Of a stretch of 64,000 nt of DNA, positions 29,196-57,877 are shown piece by piece. The notes beneath the pieces are model-generated. The model did no database searches. It was not told the origin of the DNA and saw nothing but the letters and a program-made list of their open reading frames with translations. The translations under genes were made by a program, and so were the position numbers. The stretch comes from Echinometra lucunter (Eukaryota; Echinodermata; Echinoidea; Camarodonta; Echinometridae), in the NCBI GenBank assembly GCA_029962745.1, contig CM057152.1:26162507-26226506 (forward strand), given 5' to 3'. The number at the start of each line of letters is the position of its first letter. Positions within the stretch are counted from its first letter, which is position 1.

Positions 29196-32100
29196 GTGAG
29201 TTAATTGTTCTGTTGTACCCTCACAAGATCAAGTAATTTTTTTTTTTTTTTTTTTTATCTTTTGAAAATATTTGAGTTTGAATTCCACCATAGCACATTT
29301 GTGTGCAGGAAACTATCAATTACCAAGTAAAATGGATCCCATCCCACATTTTCAGATATCCATGTAAGAGAAACTAGAATTTTGTTTTACAGTACCTAAT
29401 ATTGTGAACATTGAAACAAATTAAATTTCTTTCAGGGATGTAATTCAACCCCAGTTTGTGCAGTCTTTGACCCATTAACTTATTAGTAAGCTCACATCTG
29501 AATACGCTCATATTTTCGTTGTGGTTTAATTATGCCTCCGCCCACCAAAGGTGAGTGCCAGAGACATTATTATTTTCGGGTTGTCTGTCCATCCCGTTTT
29601 CGTTCTTGTGATAACTTAAGAACCATTTGACGGATCAACTTCAGACTTGGCTCAGGTATGCATATTGGAGGGACAATGATCTGAGTAGAATTTGGGGTCA
29701 CAGGATCAAAGGTCAAAGGTCATAGAGGTTATTTATACATGAAAATGGCTTGTTCGAGAACATTGGCATGAAATTGATTGGATATAGTTCCACCTTGTCC
29801 ACCTTCATAAAAAAAATGCATGTGAGGTCTTGTAATATTCAATTCATGATTTTTAGTGCATTTAGTGTAAATATCTGAAAAGAACGCATAACAACTGCTA
29901 CACACTGCCTTATGGTGGGACCTGTATGCAGTGATCACAGCTCTTCATTATGCTTGTCATGTTACAAGCAGAACCTTCATCAGCTTTATATAGGTGTGCA
30001 GGCACTCTGCATGTCAACGTTTGAAGGTTTACGTCCCTAACCCAGGATAACAATTGGGCAATTCCACATGGGAAGCACAGTCACTTAACTTCAGATTTAT
30101 AAAAACAATCACTTTGATAGTCCTGATTTAGCCAAATCCTTGAATTCAAAGAAGCTAGAACAAAAAGGAATTCCACCATCTTTATAGTCATTATTGGTAT
30201 AGTGCATGTTTGATTTTACAAGACATATTTGTTATATGAAAGTAGCATCTTTTTTCTGGTAATTCCGTTACCAAGGTACATACAGTATACCACAATATCA
30301 TGAATATAAGTAGAAAATTGTTGAAATAAAAGAGTTCAGGTGAAAGAATAGGCATATTTTCAGAGTATTAAATGGTAAGAAGGAAGGCAGGGCATAAAAT
30401 AGGCACACAAACTCTAAAAAATGTAACAGAATTACAAATTGTAATTCCATTACTGTGGAATTGCCCAATCACTTAATGTTTTTCATTTGTGACTTGAGGA
30501 TGAAAAAATTCATAGCATCTTAATTTTGTTCTGCTTGTATCTGGCTATTTACAATAAGAAAGCAAAGAAATGTGATTTGTACCTTTTGAGGGCTGTCCAA
30601 AACTGTACGCATACCTTTAAAGAATAGGGTTGTGCATTTTAACACATGTTGTTTTAAGATAATAGCAGAAAAAAGACATGCCTACCCAAGAAAAAATTCT
30701 TTGGTAACCAGCCTTGAGTGCTGAAGGTGTTGACTTTGTCATTCCCTTCTTTTAACCCCAAATAGGCTAAGCCTTAAATCTAGAGAATAGTTATCCGAAC
30801 AGATTTGATACACTCTTGTTGGCTTCAGTTAGTATGGTAAATATACAGATATATTTAGTCTTCAAAATAGGAAAGAGCTAGAGGAAGAAGAAGAATAGGA
30901 GAATCATTTATGCCATCTAATCAGAAAAACTGGAACCTTCTGACCCAACTTCATGTACATGTATTTGAAGGCTTTTGGATTTAAGGCATTTGCTTGTTGT
31001 ACTGGCATGTATTGTTCCAGTATGAACAATGTTTCAATTTGATCTGTATCACCTTTGGAAGGATGTTGTTTTCTTTTATTGGTAAAAACGTGTGCTCTGT
31101 TTAATTGAAAATGTCACTTTGTAGTTTTAAATCAAACTGAATTAGAACAGGCAATGCACATTGCAGTCTATCAGTCTATGATCTCAACAAACACTGGTCT
31201 GCCTTTTAAATGTAATGTTTAAATTACACGAATGTAACCTATATTAAAAGTGCATCTGTAAAGTTGATTCAGTGCTCTAGAGAACCAGTAATGTCGCTGA
31301 TTCAAGGAACATCTGGTACTAAGTGGGACTGTTTGGTGCCTCTGAAATAGCACACATCTTATTACATTAAGGAAAGTTTACTTATCTGATTTTAAGTAAC
31401 ATTCATCCCGAAGGAGTTTCCAGCCATGACAAAGGAATTGACATCAGCATCTTTCTCGCACACTTATGAAAAACTCTTGTACTGAACTGAACTGAACTGA
31501 ACACAGTCACACTTGAAGTTTTAATGGTAAAATCAAACAGTACAAACATTCATGTTTCATCAAATGTTAGAATTAGATCCAATCCACTTTTGTGAAGGAC
31601 TGAAGATATTTGAGTATTTGAGATACTTGTGCTTCCAAAGATCAACACCAAAAATATAGTTACTTACTCTTATCTTTCTTTAATCCTTTTACACAAAACA
31701 AAGGCAAAATTTATGCATGTAGTAAAGCCGATATACCGTAACTTACATATAGGATACATTATTATGAGAATATGAATTTATATTGACTGCAGACCACATG
31801 CAGTAGAAGTTATTCTGTTTGATTTTTTTTTTTCTGTGTGGAGAAAAACTGCTTAATCTTTTATTTGCTTTTATTTGTTCCATTTCCAGGTAACAGTAGC
31901 CAACTAAACAGCAGTAATCCCCAAAGAATGTCACAGATGAAGAAGTGCCCCAATGAGTTTTTACATCAGAATCCCCAAAGTGAGCGCCAGCTTTTCTACA
32001 ACGATGTAGCCATGCAGCTCTATAACAGTGACTTCAACAAGTTTGCATCCAAGAAGGAATTTCATGGTTACCTGTTAGAGCAACAAAAGTGGAGATGGGA

Positions 32101-33016
32101 TACCCACAGCTATATTGGTAACCTTGAGACCAGAGTACATAACTTGCTCATTAATCCAAACAGTGGGGTTGCTCAGAACGTTGCTAGATACCGCAGTGTC
32201 CCCATCAAATGTAAAAGTGAGGATGTGAAGCGATGTGAAGCTACGTCCAAAGAACTTGAGAACATGGCAACTCGCATTGCCAGTGTACGGCAGCAGCTAC
32301 TACACAAAAAGGGTACCTTGCTAACATCCAGCGACAACAGCGTAGTGGTATGGCAGAATGAGCTAGCCTACATAGAGCAGCTGTTTGACAGGACTGATCA
32401 GATGTACAATGAGGTCTTGTCTACCTTGGCAAGTGTGAACCAGACCTTCTCCCACCTTCAGACAAGCTTCACAGCCGAAGCTGCAGAGTTGGCTGATCGC
32501 AGACGCCTGTGGAGACGGCGGAAGGAGAACAACCGCAAGAGACGGAAGCGCATGGAGAAACAGCTGGAAAAGATTGAGCAGCGATCTTGTGAGCTTCTTT
32601 TTCATATCACGTCGAGGGCAGCATATGACAGGGTGCGTTCCCACCCAGAGATGCCTCGAATCGGACCTAGCGAGGTGAACACGGACATGTTAAATGGGAT
32701 TAAGTCTAAATCAGAAGTGAGGCCTCTGATGCACCTACTCAGCAAGGGATACATGACTCCAGGTGCAATGGAGATGGTCTCTCAAAAGATTCAAAAACTG
32801 GAGTGTGGTATTAAGACTGAAGCACACCAACAAGCAACCCAGGTTGGTATCAACTCCCTAGCCATCAACAAAGTGACAGCACCAGCTTCAGAATTGAACT
32901 CCATACTGCCTCCTGTGACTGGCATTGCCTCTTCAACCATGGTATCAACAGCAAATTCGTCTGTGACACAACAATCAGTGCCCACTGTTAATCTTAACAC
33001 TCAGTTAGCAAAGTAA
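28850..33016 (+). CDS. uncharacterised nuclear-type protein, 490 aa (spliced)
   Basis: Two exons, 28850-29195 and 31890-33016, join at a phase-1 junction that makes a glycine codon. The product would be 490 residues. Residues 1-65 are proline-rich. Residues 66-110 are nine pentapeptides of the MPSVS type. From about 125 to 300 the sequence looks helical and acidic/basic, with aromatic clusters (QQKWRWDTH). Residues 319-339 form a dense Arg/Lys cluster (RRRLWRRRKENNRKRRKRM), a likely nuclear localisation or nucleic-acid-binding segment, followed by a short coiled coil. The tail is Ser/Thr/Val-rich. I do not recognise the family. A nuclear regulator is a guess from the basic cluster. Coding reality is strongly supported by length, phase agreement and codon use. 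Further upstream exons are possible. Confidence 0.8.
29045..29179 (+). repeat. 15 bp coding minisatellite, nine units
   Basis: Nine 15 bp units of the type ATGCCCAGCGTGTCT encode (M/V/L)P(S/N)(V/A)S. Most differences are synonymous or conservative (Val/Ala, Met/Val/Leu), which suggests selection on the peptide. Copy number is likely to vary between alleles. Confidence 0.92.
29533..29760 (+). mobile_element. 5' fragment of the Helitron-like element
   Basis: ATGCCTCCGCCCACC, CGGGTTGTCTGTCC and one satellite unit ending GATCAAAGGTCAAAGGTCAT match 20306-20640 closely. The 3' hairpin and CTAG end are missing. Confidence 0.75.
30056..30466. mobile_element. MITE with GGGCAATTCCA ends, copy 1
   Basis: It begins GGGCAATTCCACATGGG and ends GTGGAATTGCCC. 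A sequence 390 bp long and similar throughout lies at 35024-35413. No coding capacity. Confidence 0.8.
31890..33016 (+). CDS. main exon of the 490 aa protein
   Basis: The acceptor TTGTTCCATTTCCAG ends at 31889. The exon carries 375 codons and ends TAA at 33014-33016. It encodes the helical region, the basic cluster and the Ser/Thr tail. It is the longest open frame in the window and has balanced codon use unlike its surroundings. Confidence 0.88.
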
Positions 33017-41718: not shown

Positions 41719-41871
41719 TCATTCGCTGCTTTCCAGTTCTTCTAGAATAAAGTTATAGGAGTCCGGTGATATATACTGATTAGGCATCATCTCAAGTAGT
41801 TTACCAATTGTTGCATCGTCATGATTCCGTCTTCGCCATTCATGTAACATCTTAAATATCGTATACTCCAT
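41719..41871 (-). CDS. exon 4: second half of death domain 2
   Basis: It begins after AAAAATACAG at 41872, in phase 0, and runs 50 codons to TGA. It contains YTIFKMLHEWRRRNHDDATI, the classic late helices of a death domain (W, then basic, then AT-GKLL). It completes the half domain of exon 3. On its own it is short enough to be missed. Confidence 0.8.
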   Translation of the reverse strand: MEYTIFKMLHEWRRRNHDDATIGKLLEMMPNQYISPDSYNFILEELESSE

Positions 41872-41886
41872 CTGTATTTTTGAAAG

Positions 41887-41918
<32 letters not shown>

Positions 41919-42328
41919 GATAAAAGAATAAAAGATGATGGTGACGACGACGATAATAATATTAAAGACAACAGCAACAACAATGATGATGATAATGATA
42001 ATAATGGTAATAAGAATATTATCTTGCCTGAATCAAACGACCGGGGTAATAATATTTCTGTAAAGCACTTAGACACATCTCAGAGAGATGCATTAGGCGC
42101 TAAATAAATGCAGAATAATCATCATTATTACATTATTATTATCATTTCTCAGTTTTCTTTCATTATCATTATTATTATTATTATAATCGTCATCATCATA
42201 ATTATAATCATTAAAAACTATTATCAAATAGTAGTAGCAGTAGGAGTAGTAGTAACAGTAGGAGTATAATAGCAGCAGTAGGAGTAGTACTAGTAGTATA
42301 GCAGCAGTAGGAGGAGTAGTAGTAGTAG

Positions 42329-42385
<57 letters not shown>

Positions 42386-42442
42386 CAGTAATACTATCAT
42401 TATTTACGCAATCACACGATCGTAATTATACACACGCACACA

Positions 42443-42520
<78 letters not shown>

Positions 42521-45500
42521 CCCTCCCTGAGTTACAATAGCCGATTTGTTTTAATGTTGCAAGTATTGAATATTGATTATGGTGACCTTTTCTGCGCACA
42601 CACGCATATATATATATTTTCCCTCCCTGAGTTACAATAGCCGATTTGTTTTAATGTTGCAAGTATTGAATATTGATTATGGTGACCTTTTCTGTTTGTT
42701 GTATTCTTTCCAACTTTGTACGAAATATATTTACTTCAACCCTCGGACTGCGATCAGGGCCGTCGCCAACGGGGGACCCCCCCCCCCCCCCCCCCCTGCT
42801 CTGGATATCGTCGGGGTAAAGCCGAGCTGCAGTCGGGAAACATGGGAAGGAAGGGGAAAAGAAGAGAAAAGAAAAAAGAAAGAAGAAAGGGAAGAAAGGG
42901 GAAAAGAAAAAAAAAACAATAATAGGCCTCAAGGTTTAAAAAAAGAAAAGAAGAAAAGTCTTGAAGAAAGAAAGAGAGGTTCTGAGGTTGCGCTTGTGGG
43001 TCGGACGTGGAGTCGGGACGATGGACCGTATCGGGTCAGGCGTAGCTCTTGTCGACGGCCCTGGCGCTGTGGAATCCCTGGTTGATATTAGGGAAAATTC
43101 TCTGGCGAGCGAAGCTAGTCAGAATACTATGGCGCTTCGCTCGCCAATTACTATTTTGCCTTGATATCTACTACGGACTCCAGGGCCGTCGACAAGTCAG
43201 AGGCTAGGTCAGGCGGGGCTGTCCCAGCTGTTCTGTGTCGGGTATTCTTGCTTGACCTATATCATCCTCGTCCTCGGTAGTGAACATTAATCAGTTTGAA
43301 GATGAAGGAAAGGAAAGAAGGAAAAGGAAAGAGGATGAAAACAAAAGGAAAGAAACAAGAAAAAAAATGGAGGCGCTCGTTCGCTTTGCTCGATTTTTAT
43401 GTATCTTAGCTAATGTCGGTTACATATGGTTTGCATCTTGAACGGAAGAGATGTCGATAAATTAAAATTGTGTACATTACTCAAATCATGAGAATGGAGC
43501 AACAGTACACCTGTTCTCAGTTATACCACAAAAACAATTTTCTCGCTCGCTTGCTGCGCTCGCTCATAAAATGTTGAAATAAGAAGGTTTCGGGCACTCT
43601 TATTCCAGCAGCGAGATTCTAGAATATCATTATATTTGGGCAGCGAGGTGTCCGACTATCATCCTCGAAGCTACAGGAAGATATACATTATATAATCAAC
43701 AAGAGTATTTTGGTGACAAATCTACGTTCTAAAGAAGCCTCACTTCGCTCACTCGCAGAAACAGAATGGTTTCGGACAGCAAGTAGGGTGCCCAAATAGA
43801 GTCATATTCGGCTTACTGGCTTGTGTATTTTGATGACGAAATAACATTGGTACCACGAAAGAGAGTATATATTTTTTCTTCGCTCGCTGCGCTCGCTCGT
43901 ATTAGATACAGGTTGTTTTCGGAAAGAAAAACACATTCGGCAAGTGAGGTGACCAAATATATGATTTAGATATCTTTAGGCCCATCATGTATTTTGATGA
44001 AGAATTGTCACTTCTATAAGTATACCATGAAAAAGAGTATATATATTTTTCTCGCTCGCTGCGCTCGCTCGTTTAATGTTTAGATATAGGATAGTCTTTG
44101 AAATCGAATGAATTAGACAAGAGAGGTAACAAAATATTTAATTTAGATATCATATAGGCCTATCGTGTATTTTGATCAAGAATTATAACTTCTACCATAA
44201 AAAGGAGTATATAGATTTTTTCCTCGCTCGCTGTGCTGGCTCGTATAATAGATACAAGATGGTTTGGGAAAGCAAACAAATTCGGCAAGCGAGGTGACCA
44301 AATGTACATATCTCAAAGTTAATTCCATCGTGTATTTTGATAAAGAATTATGTCTTCTAACATGAAAAGGAGTGAATATATTATTTCCTCGCTCAGTGCG
44401 CTCGCTCTTATAATATTAAGATTTAGGATGGTTTGGGAAAGTGAATGAATTAGGCAAGAGAGATGACCAAATATATAATTTAGATATCTAGGCCAGTCTT
44501 GTATTCTGATGTAGAATCATCACTTCTACCATGAAAAGGAGAATAAAAGGCCTATATTTTTCCTCGCTCGCTGCACTCGCTCGTGTAATATTTATAGCTA
44601 CAGGATGGTTTGGGAAAGCGAATGAATTCTGCAAGCGAAGTGACTGACCAAAATAATATATAATTTAGATATCGTATATGCCCACCAGATATTTGGGTGA
44701 AGAAGTATCTCTCCTAAAATGAAAAGGAGTATTTTCCTGGCTCGCTGCGCTCGCTTAAATAAAAGTCACCAAATCTGGTTGAAATTGACTGAAATGCGTA
44801 TAGGAAAGACGAAGGAAAATGTGAAAGAAGCACACAATTGAACATGCCTAGAAGGTTTATACCGTTGAATTTATAGACTTTGGTCGTCGCTAATCGATGG
44901 CAATGTTTATCAGTAATCAGTGGCCTCTTCACCCCCCCCCCCCCCCACTGAAAAAGGTCTATCGACGCCCCTGACTGCGATGCAATATCTTTTTAATAAA
45001 ACATATTATCATTATCATCATCTTTCATAATGATAGTAGTACAATACCAGCAATAATAGAAGACGAAGAAGAAGAAGAAAAAAAAAAGAAGGGAGGAGGA
45101 GGAGGACAGAAAAAGTGGCAAAAAAGAGAGCAGTTTCAGTAAATGAACGCCAAACGCCATTTACTATGCCTTGAACACAAATTAGATTTTGAACGAGAAG
45201 TACTTTTAAATGATTCAGGACCAAATATAGCAGCATTCATGGCCAGGTCAGGGTTCGGCATAATAGACATGATAGAGCAGAAAGAGACTACAAATGGACC
45301 ACACTATGAAACAGTGTAGAGTCTGAGCGTGAAACAAATGATTGGAACATTAAATGCTGCTGACAATAATTTTCCGAGCGCAGTTCGCTAAGATTTCATG
45401 TACAAAATTATACAAACAGCTGCAGGTCTTCCAACAAACACAGGAAACATTAACACGAGTAAGAATAAAGATCGTTACAGCCTTTTAAAATCAACTCTCT

Positions 45501-48500
45501 CGTGATGCCATAACAATAGAAAGTGTATGCATTTAGAGCAATAGGCTCCTCAATCCCCATGATCTGATGATGCAAAATATACTCTTTCACATAATATCAT
45601 TTTACTGTAAATGTACTGAAGGCTAAGGAAATGAATTAATTATCATCTGCTTACACTGGATTCGTTGTATTTAAACTGATCGATGTCAGCCTTCGTCATG
45701 CCCAGATGTACAATGCCGAACTGTGACCATCCGTCCCCCATCTGACTGGCTAGCCTGCACAAAATCTTATCAGAAACACTAGATGACCGGCTAAGTGGTC
45801 CAGAGTCCGGGTGCGTAGAGTTCCCACCTTCCTCTAGTAAAAAGAATCGTGTCAAATTCATGAAAACAACGAATGCTAGACTTGACTTTCATGCATATAA
45901 AGGCAAACAGAGTTGGGATCTTGTCCCCACTATACAGGGTTGACGATAAAAACGGACAACATACTTTCAATAAAGATGGGCAAAGTTCACCGATACCAGT
46001 AGATGGGGAATCTACTCAGAATAAAAAATTACACAAAATTTGTCAGAAATAGTTTGCATTCTAGAAACATTTTTTTTTGTGAAATAATGTTGAAGACATC
46101 GACCGCCGGTGTACCTTGCACAAAGTTACGTATTTCATTGTGTTATTTCAGAAATGGTATTATGCCGGAGCTTTTGGGCGAGATGTAATCAACGTCAGAT
46201 TGGAAATAAAAATAACATTACACAAATTTTCTCTTCTTCCATGCGTTTTTAATAGCTTGTTAAACATTGACATGAAATTAAACATCTTGGCATGCATATT
46301 CTGTAAACCCAAACTCAGATCACACATATCTTTAATTGTTTATACTTCATGGTTTTTCTTAAAGACAAAACAGGTAATATTGCATATTTACATTTGGACT
46401 GTTTGTCTTTATATGGGGTACATGACAAGGAATACCGGACAGTAGGGAATGTCAGACACAGTCACAAAAGGGCTTAAAGGGGTGGGATGTATTGCCCTGA
46501 TGAGTGATATAAAGTCATCAACCTGTCAGCGGGCACAAGTTTTCTTCTGACATGTTTTGCAAAGAAAGCTACATGATCGCGTGAATTTGATCTGCGCCTT
46601 TTAACAGATGTACATGCAGTATGAATTCGATGATTCTACCTCAATTCAATAGAAATTTATTGTGATCACAGTGCTTTTTGCAGAAAGTTCATGTAATGAG
46701 ATGTAATCAACGTCAGATTGGAAATAAAAATAACATTACACAAATTTTCTCTTCTTCCATGCGTTTTTAATAGCTTGTTAAACATTGACATGAAATTAAA
46801 CATCTTGGCATGCATATTCTGTAAACCCAAACTCAGATCACACATATCTTTAATTGTTTATACTTCATGGTTTTTCTTAAAGACAAAACAGGTAATATTG
46901 CATATTTACATTTGGACTGTTTGTCTTTATATGGGGTACATGACAAGGAATACCGGACAGTAGGGAATGTCAGACACAGTCACAAAAGGGCTTAAAGGGG
47001 TGGGATGTATTGCCCTGATGAGTGATATAAAGTCATCAACCTGTCAGCGGGCACAAGTTTTCTTCTGACATGTTTTGCAAAGAAAGCTACATGATCGCGT
47101 GAATTTGATCTGCGCCTTTTAACAGATGTACATGCAGTATGAATTCGATGATTCTACCTCAATTCAATAGAAATTTATTGTGATCACAGTGCTTTTTGCA
47201 GAAAGTTCATTGACCTTCAGACCTCTGACCTTGGTCAGATTCAACTCATTTTAGAACTTAACCTGTGCCTTTGAGAGATGTTCCTGTGGTATGAATTTGG
47301 GGATTTCTGTTTGCCTCAAATCTAAAAGTTATTTTTATTACAGTATGATTATCGACGACGCCATCGACACTGGAAATATTGACACCTATAATAGTCTAGC
47401 TCCGCTATGCAGGCAAGACCCCCCCCCCCCAACAAAACTTTTATCTCTTGACCGCCTCCACTCATCCTCAAAGAAATTCAGACTGGATCTTAAGGGCTGG
47501 TAATCCATTTAAAGTCTAGTCACTACGTGAATGTATGTGCGCCATTGCTTTAAGTTGTACGTGTCTCGACTTCACTCTCCACTTTCATGACATTCACCAT
47601 GTTCACAAGATTTAAATTGAATTTAACTAATGTGTAAAGCATCCTCACCAAAGCAAGCAGACACCAGGTCATCGAGGCCAGCTTCTTTTAAAGCGTTGAG
47701 CAGTGTTCGTCTTTGGTGTCGCTCCGGAACATTTTTTCTCCAGTGAACCAGCAAACTATACGTTCCTTTTAAACGTTTTGTGTCAATCTCCGCCAAAGAA
47801 ATGCCGAGAAAAATACCAAGACGATGGACGAACTCTGGCGAGATGCTGTCAGAGAGTTTCAGGAGGTCGATGTCAGTTACCCTGCCGGTAATAACTTCGT
47901 CAGTCGGCTCTGAAGTCAAAGTTGTATCACCACGATCACCCTTCTCCGGCTTACACATCGTGTTGTGCTGGGGTTCTGTGTTATTATTGCCTTCAAAAGA
48001 TTACATCAAATGTCATTACCATGGTGATAATCAATTTCATTGTCAGCATATTATTATCACATATTATTAGAACATAAATATAGTCTGAAATATCCACTTC
48101 AAATTGTTTATCAATATTCCTTTCTATTTCTGATGTCAAGGCCGTACGCAGGAATTTTCCGGGGGGGGGGGGCAAAAGTATGTTCAATATTCAAGGAAAC
48201 ATGCAAGCAAGGAAGCAAAACGATCGAGTGGGGGAGGGCGTGGGTACCCCTCCCTCATGAGGGAGCTTTTGCATTTTTCGAAACTGAATGATAGGTGCAC
48301 ACTTGGGGTGAGATTTTTAAACAATTTTTTTAAAAAGGTTAAAAATTCATGGGGGAGGGGACAATTGCCCCTTCCCGCTGCTGCGTACTGCCATGTTGCA
48401 CTATTAGCCCTTGGACTTCTGCGTTGCATTTTTTTTTAAATATTAATGAACCGAAATTAAAATGAATTGAATCGACCTGAATTGAAACATGGATCCTACG

Positions 48501-49002
48501 ATTGAAATAATTGCTAAAAAATTATTTTAGAATAAAAATCGACATTCACACATGCACTCTGCTGTCCAAAATCCAACATGTTAATTGGAGTTTGAACAAC
48601 AATAAATTGTGTTTATTTGTTCTCCTCACATCAAAATTTATGACATCACTATAGTTTATACTAAGACTCTCTTATTTTAGGTGAAACTGCAGGGGTGAAC
48701 ATGTGCCAAGCCCACATTGTCTTGACGGGTATCTTGTTATGGCCAGCATTCTGGTACTTACGTGTGTGTATAAATATGTATCAATGGGGGAAACATACCC
48801 CCCCCCCCCCAGGTATGAGGATCTGTCTACGCTAATGCTTCAAGACATGATACAATTTCACTTAATACATGTGTCCTTTGACTCATAGTTTTGGTATAAC
48901 CAGGGAACATCTTGATGACATCATCTCTACCGATGATTCCGAGTATCTCCACAAACGTGTGTGTGTATAAATATGTATCGACGGGGGAATCACCCCCCCC
49001 CC

Positions 49003-49038
<36 letters not shown>

Positions 49039-49389
49039 AGTTTGAGGACCTGTCTACACTATAATGCTTCAAGACATAATACAATTTCACTTTATACCTG
49101 TGTCATTTGACTCATAGTTTTGGTAACCAGGGAGGATCTTGATGACATCATCTCTCCCGATGATTTCAAGTATCTCCACAAACTTGTCATATTGACCTGG
49201 ATGAAGTATCATCCTCCTCTGGAGATCATGGATGATGTCCGAAGCTCGTTTCTCTTTATAATCGAATGCCCTGATGTGTCCCTGTTCGCGGCAAATGTTT
49301 TGGAAGTCCATGAGTCCATCGGGAGTCGATTCGATCTGTTTGGCTACCGCAAACATCAGCTTGCTGTATTCTGGCGGCTTGGCTGGCAT
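41719..49389 (-). CDS. DED-like plus two death domains, 316 aa (four exons)
   Basis: Exons 49389-49098, 47975-47649, 45833-45655 and 41871-41719 join in phases 1, 1 and 0, each at GT-AG borders, giving 316 residues. Residues about 8-90 resemble a death effector domain ending RDDVIKILPGY, which fits the RxDLL-type motif. Residues about 130-206 and 223-312 are death domains, with the typical Trp in LLVHWRKN and LHEWRRRN, LGISLAEID and LGMTKADID, and ATIGKLLEMM. No signal peptide or membrane segment is seen, so it should be cytosolic. FADD has one DED and one death domain; this protein has an extra death domain. A role as an adaptor in apoptosis or immune signalling is inference. The start is the first ATG after an in-frame TGA (GACATGC, G at -3). 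Confidence 0.82.
41886..41915. repeat. (TA)n beside the exon 4 acceptor
   Basis: A TA repeat about 15 bp upstream of exon 4 replaces the usual pyrimidine tract. Confidence 0.85.
42030..42215 (+). mobile_element. LINE/SINE 3' tail with ATT repeats
   Basis: GTAAAGCACTTAGACACATC followed by GCGCTAAATAAATGCAGAAT and then imperfect ATT/ATC repeats matches the 3' tail layout of CR1/L2-like LINEs and their SINEs. Lies in intron 3 of the death-domain gene. Confidence 0.6.
42228..42386. repeat. (AGT)n microsatellite
   Basis: AGT, AGC and AGG trinucleotides, becoming pure AGT over 42330-42380. Confidence 0.92.
42447..42694. repeat. (TA)n plus 100 bp duplication
   Basis: A TA repeat (42447-42516) is followed by a 78 bp segment (42517-42594) repeated identically at 42617-42694, with CACACGCATATATAT between them. 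Confidence 0.9.
42776..42925. repeat. C run and purine-rich tract
   Basis: About 21 C bases (42777-42797) lie beside GCCGTCGCCAACGGGGG. They are followed by an AAGAAAAGAAGG purine tract. Confidence 0.7.
43048..43196. repeat. nested palindrome
   Basis: Outer arms CTTGTCGACGGCCCTGG (43048-43064) and its exact complement (43180-43196). Inner arms GGCGAGCGAAGC (43104-43115) and its exact complement (43134-43145). The flanks are purine-rich repeats. Confidence 0.85.
43530..44765. repeat. 172 bp tandem satellite
   Basis: CTCGCTCGCTGCGCTCGCTCG-like cores recur near 43879, 44052, 44222, 44390, 44563 and 44739, spaced 168-176 bp. Units share TTAGATATC, GTATTTTGATGA and GGATGGTTTGGGAAAGC phrases. Related but more scattered units occur at 3440-5190, 52090-52680 and 55140-56090. 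Located in intron 3 of the death-domain gene. Confidence 0.85.
45060..45112. repeat. (GAA)n/(GGA)n tract
   Basis: Purine triplet repeat with an internal A run. Confidence 0.85.
45655..45833 (-). CDS. exon 3: first half of death domain 2
   Basis: The acceptor TTTTTACTAG ends at 45834 and the donor is AGT|GTAAGC at 45655/45654. It enters in phase 1 and leaves in phase 0 (59 whole codons). It encodes a Ser-rich linker and then SVSDKILCRLASQMGDGWSQ, the early helices of a death domain, ending FKYNESS. Confidence 0.82.
46181..47210. repeat. 518 bp tandem duplication
   Basis: The segment starting AGATGTAATCAACGTCAG at 46181 is repeated from about 46699 with a period of 518 bp. By eye the copies are essentially identical. 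Both lie in intron 2 of the death-domain gene. The repeated ORF (46116-46445, 46718-46963) has no domain. Confidence 0.9.
47649..47975 (-). CDS. exon 2: death domain 1
   Basis: The acceptor AATAACACAG ends at 47976 and the donor is TTTG|GTGAGG at 47649/47648. Phase 1 at both ends (327 nt). It encodes a charged linker and a complete death domain: SPEFVHRLGIFLGISLAEID, then TYSLLVHWRKN, then LLNALKEAGLDDLVSACF. It lacks the late ATxxxLL pattern of death domain 2. Confidence 0.85.
48160..48420. repeat. G-tract repeat fragment
   Basis: AAGGCCGTACGCAGGAATTT followed by a G run, then CTCCCTCATGAGGGAG (a small palindrome) and GGGGGAGGGGACAATTGCCCC. It looks like a non-autonomous element remnant in intron 1. 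Confidence 0.45.
48764..49190. repeat. tandem duplication of exon 1 end with C run
   Basis: A unit starting GTGTGTATAAATATGTATC (48764 and 48961) contains a C run and the 3' part of exon 1. The left copy holds about 67 bp homologous to the exon end (48890-48956), encoding a variant of the RDDVIK segment. Its donor reads ACACAT|GTATTA instead of ACACAG|GTATAA. Confidence 0.85.
49098..49389 (-). CDS. exon 1: DED-like domain and start codon
   Basis: ATG at 49389 and donor ACACAG|GTATAA at 49098/49097, leaving in phase 1. It encodes 97 residues with six likely helices. The end, ILEIIGRDDVIKILPGY, resembles the last helices of death effector domains. An in-frame TGA lies 24 bp upstream of the ATG. 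Confidence 0.82.
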
Positions 49390-57377: not shown

Positions 57378-57877
57378 NNNNNNNNNNNNNNNNNNNNNNN
57401 NNNNNNNNNNNNNNNNNNNNNNNNNNNNNNNNNNNNNNNNNNNNNNNNNNNNNNNNNNNNNNNNNNNNNNNNNNNNNNNNNNNNNNNNNNNNNNNNNNNN
57501 NNNNNNNNNNNNNNNNNNNNNNNNNNNNNNNNNNNNNNNNNNNNNNNNNNNNNNNNNNNNNNNNNNNNNNNNNNNNNNNNNNNNNNNNNNNNNNNNNNNN
57601 NNNNNNNNNNNNNNNNNNNNNNNNNNNNNNNNNNNNNNNNNNNNNNNNNNNNNNNNNNNNNNNNNNNNNNNNNNNNNNNNNNNNNNNNNNNNNNNNNNNN
57701 NNNNNNNNNNNNNNNNNNNNNNNNNNNNNNNNNNNNNNNNNNNNNNNNNNNNNNNNNNNNNNNNNNNNNNNNNNNNNNNNNNNNNNNNNNNNNNNNNNNN
57801 NNNNNNNNNNNNNNNNNNNNNNNNNNNNNNNNNNNNNNNNNNNNNNNNNNNNNNNNNNNNNNNNNNNNNNNNNNNNN
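57378..57877. other. assembly gap (500 N)
   Basis: Exactly 500 undetermined bases, a conventional scaffold gap. ORFs spanning it are meaningless. Confidence 1.

Follow-up and report, generated by a model that had tools for sequence, protein, structure and literature searches.

A single-copy sea urchin gene encoding a putative adaptor with a divergent death effector-like domain and two death domains

Gene structure and homologues

We analyzed a window of 64,000 nucleotides from the sea urchin Echinometra lucunter (assembly GCA_029962745.1, contig CM057152.1, positions 26,162,507 to 26,226,506; window positions count from its first letter). Its minus strand carries a four-exon gene whose predicted product joins one death effector domain (DED)-like domain to two death domains (DDs), here called DD1 and DD2. 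We put the probability at roughly 0.6 that this single-copy gene, as read from its sequence, encodes a three-module DED-DD1-DD2 adaptor.

The joined frame was rebuilt from the sequence and contained 321 codons followed by a TGA stop codon at 41721-41719, instead of the 316 residues given in the original prediction. The same prediction had claimed four minus-strand segments with GT-AG joins and phases 1, 1, and 0, and this was confirmed by the rebuilt frame and by homologues across all exons. The donor and acceptor borders were ACAG/gtataaag and tttgaag/GCAAT for intron 1, TTTG/gtgaggat and tactag/AGGAA for intron 2, and CAGT/gtaagcag and aatacag/ATGGA for intron 3. An alternative acceptor two bases inside exon 3 would break the frame.

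A protein search matched six proteins, all of sea urchins, and an alignment-based search returned the same six and two fragments; these eight proteins were labelled P0001 to P0008. Four were full-length (57-62% identity over 99-100% of the query): P0001 and P0002 of Strongylocentrotus purpuratus (62% and 60% over 100%), P0003 of Lytechinus variegatus (57% over 99%), and P0004 of L. pictus (58% over 99%). P0005 and P0006 were partial models, and P0007 and P0008 were the fragments. Homology was lost at the predicted exon borders, in P0007 at residue 98 and in P0005 at residue 213, and P0008 (XP_011678749.1, S. purpuratus) spanned residues 213-272 only. Past the end of exon 3, P0008 has VSN and the window frame VSR, which is what reading through a GT donor would give. 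Because full-length homologues were found and the partial models lose their match where borders had been predicted, we concluded from sequence comparison that the gene is real and that the exon joins are right. An artefactual or chance joining of unrelated frames was rejected because the homologues match all four exons. The gene structure and the architecture are thus well supported. The last exon had been described as easily missed by annotation, which holds for P0008, a protein without exon 4, but five of the eight returned proteins do align to this exon.

Some observations around exon 2 would fit two transcripts or genes: one made of exons 1 and 2, which, if translated as far as the stop at 47623, would yield a FADD-like protein of the DED-DD type with 219 residues, and another transcript containing exons 3 and 4. 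Exon 2 is open for eight codons beyond its donor, the P0005 model of S. purpuratus likewise continues at this point, and in P0008 exon 3 follows unrelated upstream sequence. We consider this very unlikely, since P0001 to P0004, at 57-62% identity, each combine the three domains in a single chain, and since P0005 lacks a stop at the corresponding place after exon 2 and continues. The 219-residue form may exist as an alternative isoform of the three-domain gene.

Each exon had one strong match in the E. lucunter genome, all of them in the window (next match, E 4.3e-5), showing that the gene is single-copy; a multi-copy family was rejected for this reason. Intron 1 contains a decayed partial copy of exon 1 (Table 1), adjoining long G runs. 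It was rejected as an alternative exon because it is frameshifted by two extra bases and has an altered donor base. Intron 2 holds a 100% identical 300-base direct repeat (46180-46479 and 46698-46997), which is either a recent duplication or an assembly artefact.

The whole-length family members correspond to LOC100893977 and LOC115929617 (S. purpuratus), LOC121418798 (L. variegatus), and LOC129265371 (L. pictus). They are named in databases only, as "uncharacterized", and their precomputed Pfam domain is Death, not DED. No paper on the DED-DD-DD family was found in the openly available literature covered, including by six LOC numbers. The gene family is therefore already in databases but uncharacterised, and its architecture is a variant on the FADD/RAIDD kind.

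Table 1. Features of the gene in the window.
Feature	Position	Strand	Evidence
Coding part of exon 1, starting at ATG (codons 1-97 plus one base of codon 98)	49098..49389	-	70/97 identical to S. purpuratus P0001
DED-like domain, residues 9-90	49120..49365	-	Pfam DED E 0.003, 18.2 bits, cut-off 35.9
Decayed partial copy of exon 1 3' end, in intron 1	48833..48960	-	91-94% identity to 49062-49187
Exon 2, symmetrical phase 1-1, holds DD1	47649..47990	-	57/106 aligned residues identical to P0001
DD1, residues 143-210	47653..47856	-	Pfam Death E 1.4e-4, 22.4 bits, cut-off 22.6
Exon 2 read-through to TAA (47625-47623), possible 219-residue DED-DD form	47623..47648	-	P0005 reads on at same place
Exon 3, first half of DD2 (DD2 part 45655-45768)	45655..45833	-	38/60 identical to P0001; Pfam Death 20.3 bits alone
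Exon 4 and stop TGA, second half of DD2 (DD2 part 41788-41871)	41719..41871	-	37/48 identical to P0001

Two unlike death domains

The whole protein matched Pfam Death (PF00531) in two stretches with 60.2 bits, above the curated cut-off of 22.6. DD2, which is interrupted by the phase-0 intron, scored 38.1 bits (E 1.7e-9) with exons 3 and 4 joined, and 20.3 and 12.9 bits when the pieces were taken apart. DD1 alone stayed just below the cut-off (Table 1). In profile comparison with six of the 85 death domain places listed in the E. lucunter genome, DD1 gave E 2.4e-6 and DD2 gave E 3.7e-14. These sequence matches indicated that exon 2 and exons 3 and 4 are death domains. The 85 places came from an exon-by-exon Pfam scan, in which 150 of 229 candidates were scored, and the death domain exons of the window gene were absent from them; therefore, exon-wise Pfam scans can miss the gene.

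The nearest solved relatives of the DD2 profile were CRADD/RAIDD (1.4e-6), RIPK1 (2.6e-6), PIDD (8.9e-5), and TNFR1 (1.7e-3). The companion domains of these proteins differ from those of the window protein: a CARD in RAIDD, a kinase in RIPK1, and leucine-rich repeats in PIDD. Foldseek with the S. purpuratus model placed the death domains of RAIDD, RIPK1, p84, and FADD on top (best E 5.2e-3). Alignment of DD1 with DD2 was near nil (probability 7%). Being barely alignable with each other, the two probably do not constitute a repeat but have different binding partners.

DD1 was compared with 84 of 96 death domain places of the genome, some of which had been found by searching with the window protein. 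Its best profile match was C11:6193678, which has a NACHT domain 829 bases downstream. Of the DD1-like places, 14 of 28 were followed within 12 kb downstream by a listed NACHT on their own strand, as were 5 of 66 other death domain places. This linkage is based on a list of 99 NACHT places from 219 candidates and on a downstream look at ten death domain places, two of which, C304 and C12:6009778, were NACHT-linked after first being unlabelled; some places labelled as other may also be NLRs. Since near-identical copies inflate the count, tests on identity clusters were used. At 60% identity, 8 NLR clusters outranked 41 others for DD1 (p 7e-4; p 0.005 at 40% and 9e-6 at 90%). The values for DD2 were p 0.14, 0.29, and 0.02 at 40, 60, and 90%, and the control with the FADD death domain, made with the earlier labels, gave p 0.25. 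In direct scores, DD1 reached 36.0 and 32.3 bits against two NLR death domains and 5.1 bits against that of FADD.

The second-best match of DD1 (C8:2724892, 38.6 bits) is the third of three death domain-like exons in a HOIP/RNF31-like gene on the minus strand at C8:2706000-2732000. The exons of this gene run in the order of a zinc-finger-like exon (assigned by eye, without Pfam match), three tandem death domain-like exons, two exons with matches to the UBA pair of HOIP (E 4.3e-4 and 7.4e-5), and exons for the IBR (E 1.2e-15) and the RBR C-terminus (E 9.9e-8). The other two death domain-like exons were assigned by alignment to DD1, one with a Pfam match of E 0.0048 and one without. Judged by these matches, the gene is a HOIP-like ligase bearing death domains. 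Human HOIP is not known to contain a death domain.

Taken together, DD1 appears to sit closest to the death domains of NACHT (NLR) genes and of the HOIP-like ligase. Several results weigh against this placement or against the domain assignments: the DD1 profile had no significant match among PDB sequences (best, TNFR1, E 0.35), DD1 was not resolved in the tree, DD2 also leaned to NLRs at 90% clustering, and two NLR death domain exons judged begin in phase 2, unlike exon 2 (acceptors by eye). A direct derivation of DD1 from an NLR exon was rejected, and because the tree gave no resolution and the phases differ, only a shared subtype is claimed. Phases 1-1 were also apparent for the death domain exons C8:2724892 and C521:11192 (acceptors by eye). 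The symmetry of exon 2 fits exon shuffling, but does not prove the source.

For DD2, the nearest death domain of the genome was C1:3645469 by score (40.7 bits, versus 38.3 for C11:20862503), while the tree joined DD2 with C11:20862503 (98/96) on a long branch flagged by the program as possibly false. The 2.8 kb stretch containing C11:20862503 showed no NACHT.

A divergent DED-like domain

The order of a DED-like domain followed by two death domains, as originally proposed, holds, with both death domains recognized by Pfam, but the DED is divergent. In the Pfam check suggested with that proposal, the Death cut-off was passed by the whole protein and by DD2, while DD1 alone fell just short and exon 1 remained below the DED cut-off (PF01335; Table 1). 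Exon 1 is nevertheless a probable divergent DED. DED was the commonest Pfam family for the exon 1 segments of six sequences (6/6, best E 6.1e-4), and the predicted structure of exon 1 has six helices with the DEDs of FADD and caspase-8 as top fold matches. R79 and D81, which would correspond to the R-x-D of the DED motif, were invariant in 6/6 sequences, making DED-mediated recruitment plausible.

Exon 1 might instead be a death fold of another subfamily (pyrin, CARD, or a third death domain), in which case the protein would not be a DED protein. Other death folds were close behind the best DED: the fold scores of a cytoplasmic lattice protein (8.7), pyrin (8.3), and death domain (8.2) were within 1 of it. 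Also unfavorable to a DED are the sub-cut-off Pfam score, the lack of any DED among the matches listed when the six-sequence profile was compared with PDB sequences, the lack of any Foldseek match at E <= 0.001, and pLDDT below 50 for residues 1-122 of the full-length P0001 model. However, no pyrin or CARD family was in the Pfam listing of the six segments, a control of exon 1 against death domains aligned over 24 columns only, and the R-x-D residues are invariant. The profile sets used here were six of ten DED places and the six death domains mentioned above. We judged another subfamily unlikely.

Asn31 was also invariant in 6/6 sequences. Aligned through the FADD of the same genome, it occupies a hydrophobic position of helix 2 that is presumably Phe25 of FADD, suggesting a changed DED surface. 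The claim that the protein binds a caspase-type DED is for this reason, and for the divergence of the domain, the weakest part of the earlier reading. This residue, with the lack of an enzyme domain, would also fit a decoy that caps or sequesters death-fold assemblies and inhibits death signalling rather than transmitting it. The support is indirect, and an altered surface would also suit new partners; we regard a decoy as improbable.

Relation to FADD and other known systems

The FADD gene of E. lucunter was found elsewhere, as a DED exon (C20:18126980) and a death domain exon (C20:18130377, the first of the 85 listed) 3.2 kb apart on one strand (C20:18126980-18130619). Its DED matches those of caspase-8, FLIP, and FADD, and its death domain matches human FADD at E 1.7e-20. 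The window gene was therefore rejected as a FADD orthologue, having two death domains. It resembles FADD in the DED before a death domain, in adaptor size, and in the phase-1 intron between DED and death domain, but it has one death domain more, and DD1 is far from that of FADD in score. Two other DED exons (C17:10680394 and 10684187; 55 and 69 bits) lie 3.6 kb apart on one strand, perhaps in a tandem-DED caspase or FLIP-like gene.

For amphioxus, DED-bearing ASC-like adaptors, DED-DD caspase prodomains, and FADD1 and FADD2 are reported (PMC3196919). These are likewise invertebrate deuterostome proteins with reshuffled death folds but, by their descriptions, have other domain sets. Some CED-4/Apaf-1 homologues are described with double death domain repeats at the C-terminus (PMC2246300). 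They share two death domains per chain with the window protein but, by their description, are NB-ARC proteins and not small adaptors. The same source, a 2007 survey, gives 87 death domains and only 3 DEDs for S. purpuratus (PMC2246300). DD-NACHT and DED-NACHT combinations are reported for sea urchins in another study (PMC2575513), and FADD appears as background in a P. lividus cell-death gene survey (PMC6394757).

Other features of the window

The longest open frame seen in the window (31823-33013, plus strand, 397 codons) had no Pfam match above cut-off and is probably an exon of a neighbouring gene. A Pfam scan of ten other window frames found none above the curated cut-off. An assembly gap, a 500-base N run, lies outside the gene at 57378-57877.

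Proposed function and implications

No enzyme domain was found in the window protein by Pfam. With a DED-like domain and two death domains beside this, an adaptor is the economical reading, and from these modules we infer the function. DD1 may bind, or assemble together with, those death domains of NLRs and the HOIP-like ligase that belong to its subtype, and DD2 may do so with partners of the RAIDD/RIPK1/PIDD type. The signal would then pass through the DED-like domain to a DED protein, for instance FADD or a caspase-8-like caspase. With two unlike death domains, one molecule could join two complexes. Judging from its domains, the protein is probably a connector in immune or cell-death signalling.

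A more specific and speculative proposal, which we hold to be rather unlikely though conceivable, is that the protein is the working urchin counterpart of ASC. In this role, DD1 would engage the expanded DD-NACHT receptors and DD2 a PIDDosome-like or RIPK-like complex, and the DED-DD-DD bridge would connect both to FADD or DED caspases, perhaps together with the HOIP-like ligase and its tandem death domains of the DD1 subtype.

Sea urchins have many NLRs bearing death domains. A family whose DED lies below profile cut-offs would escape DED counts such as that of the 2007 survey. The window protein would be a concrete candidate for a bridge from the DD-bearing NLRs onward.
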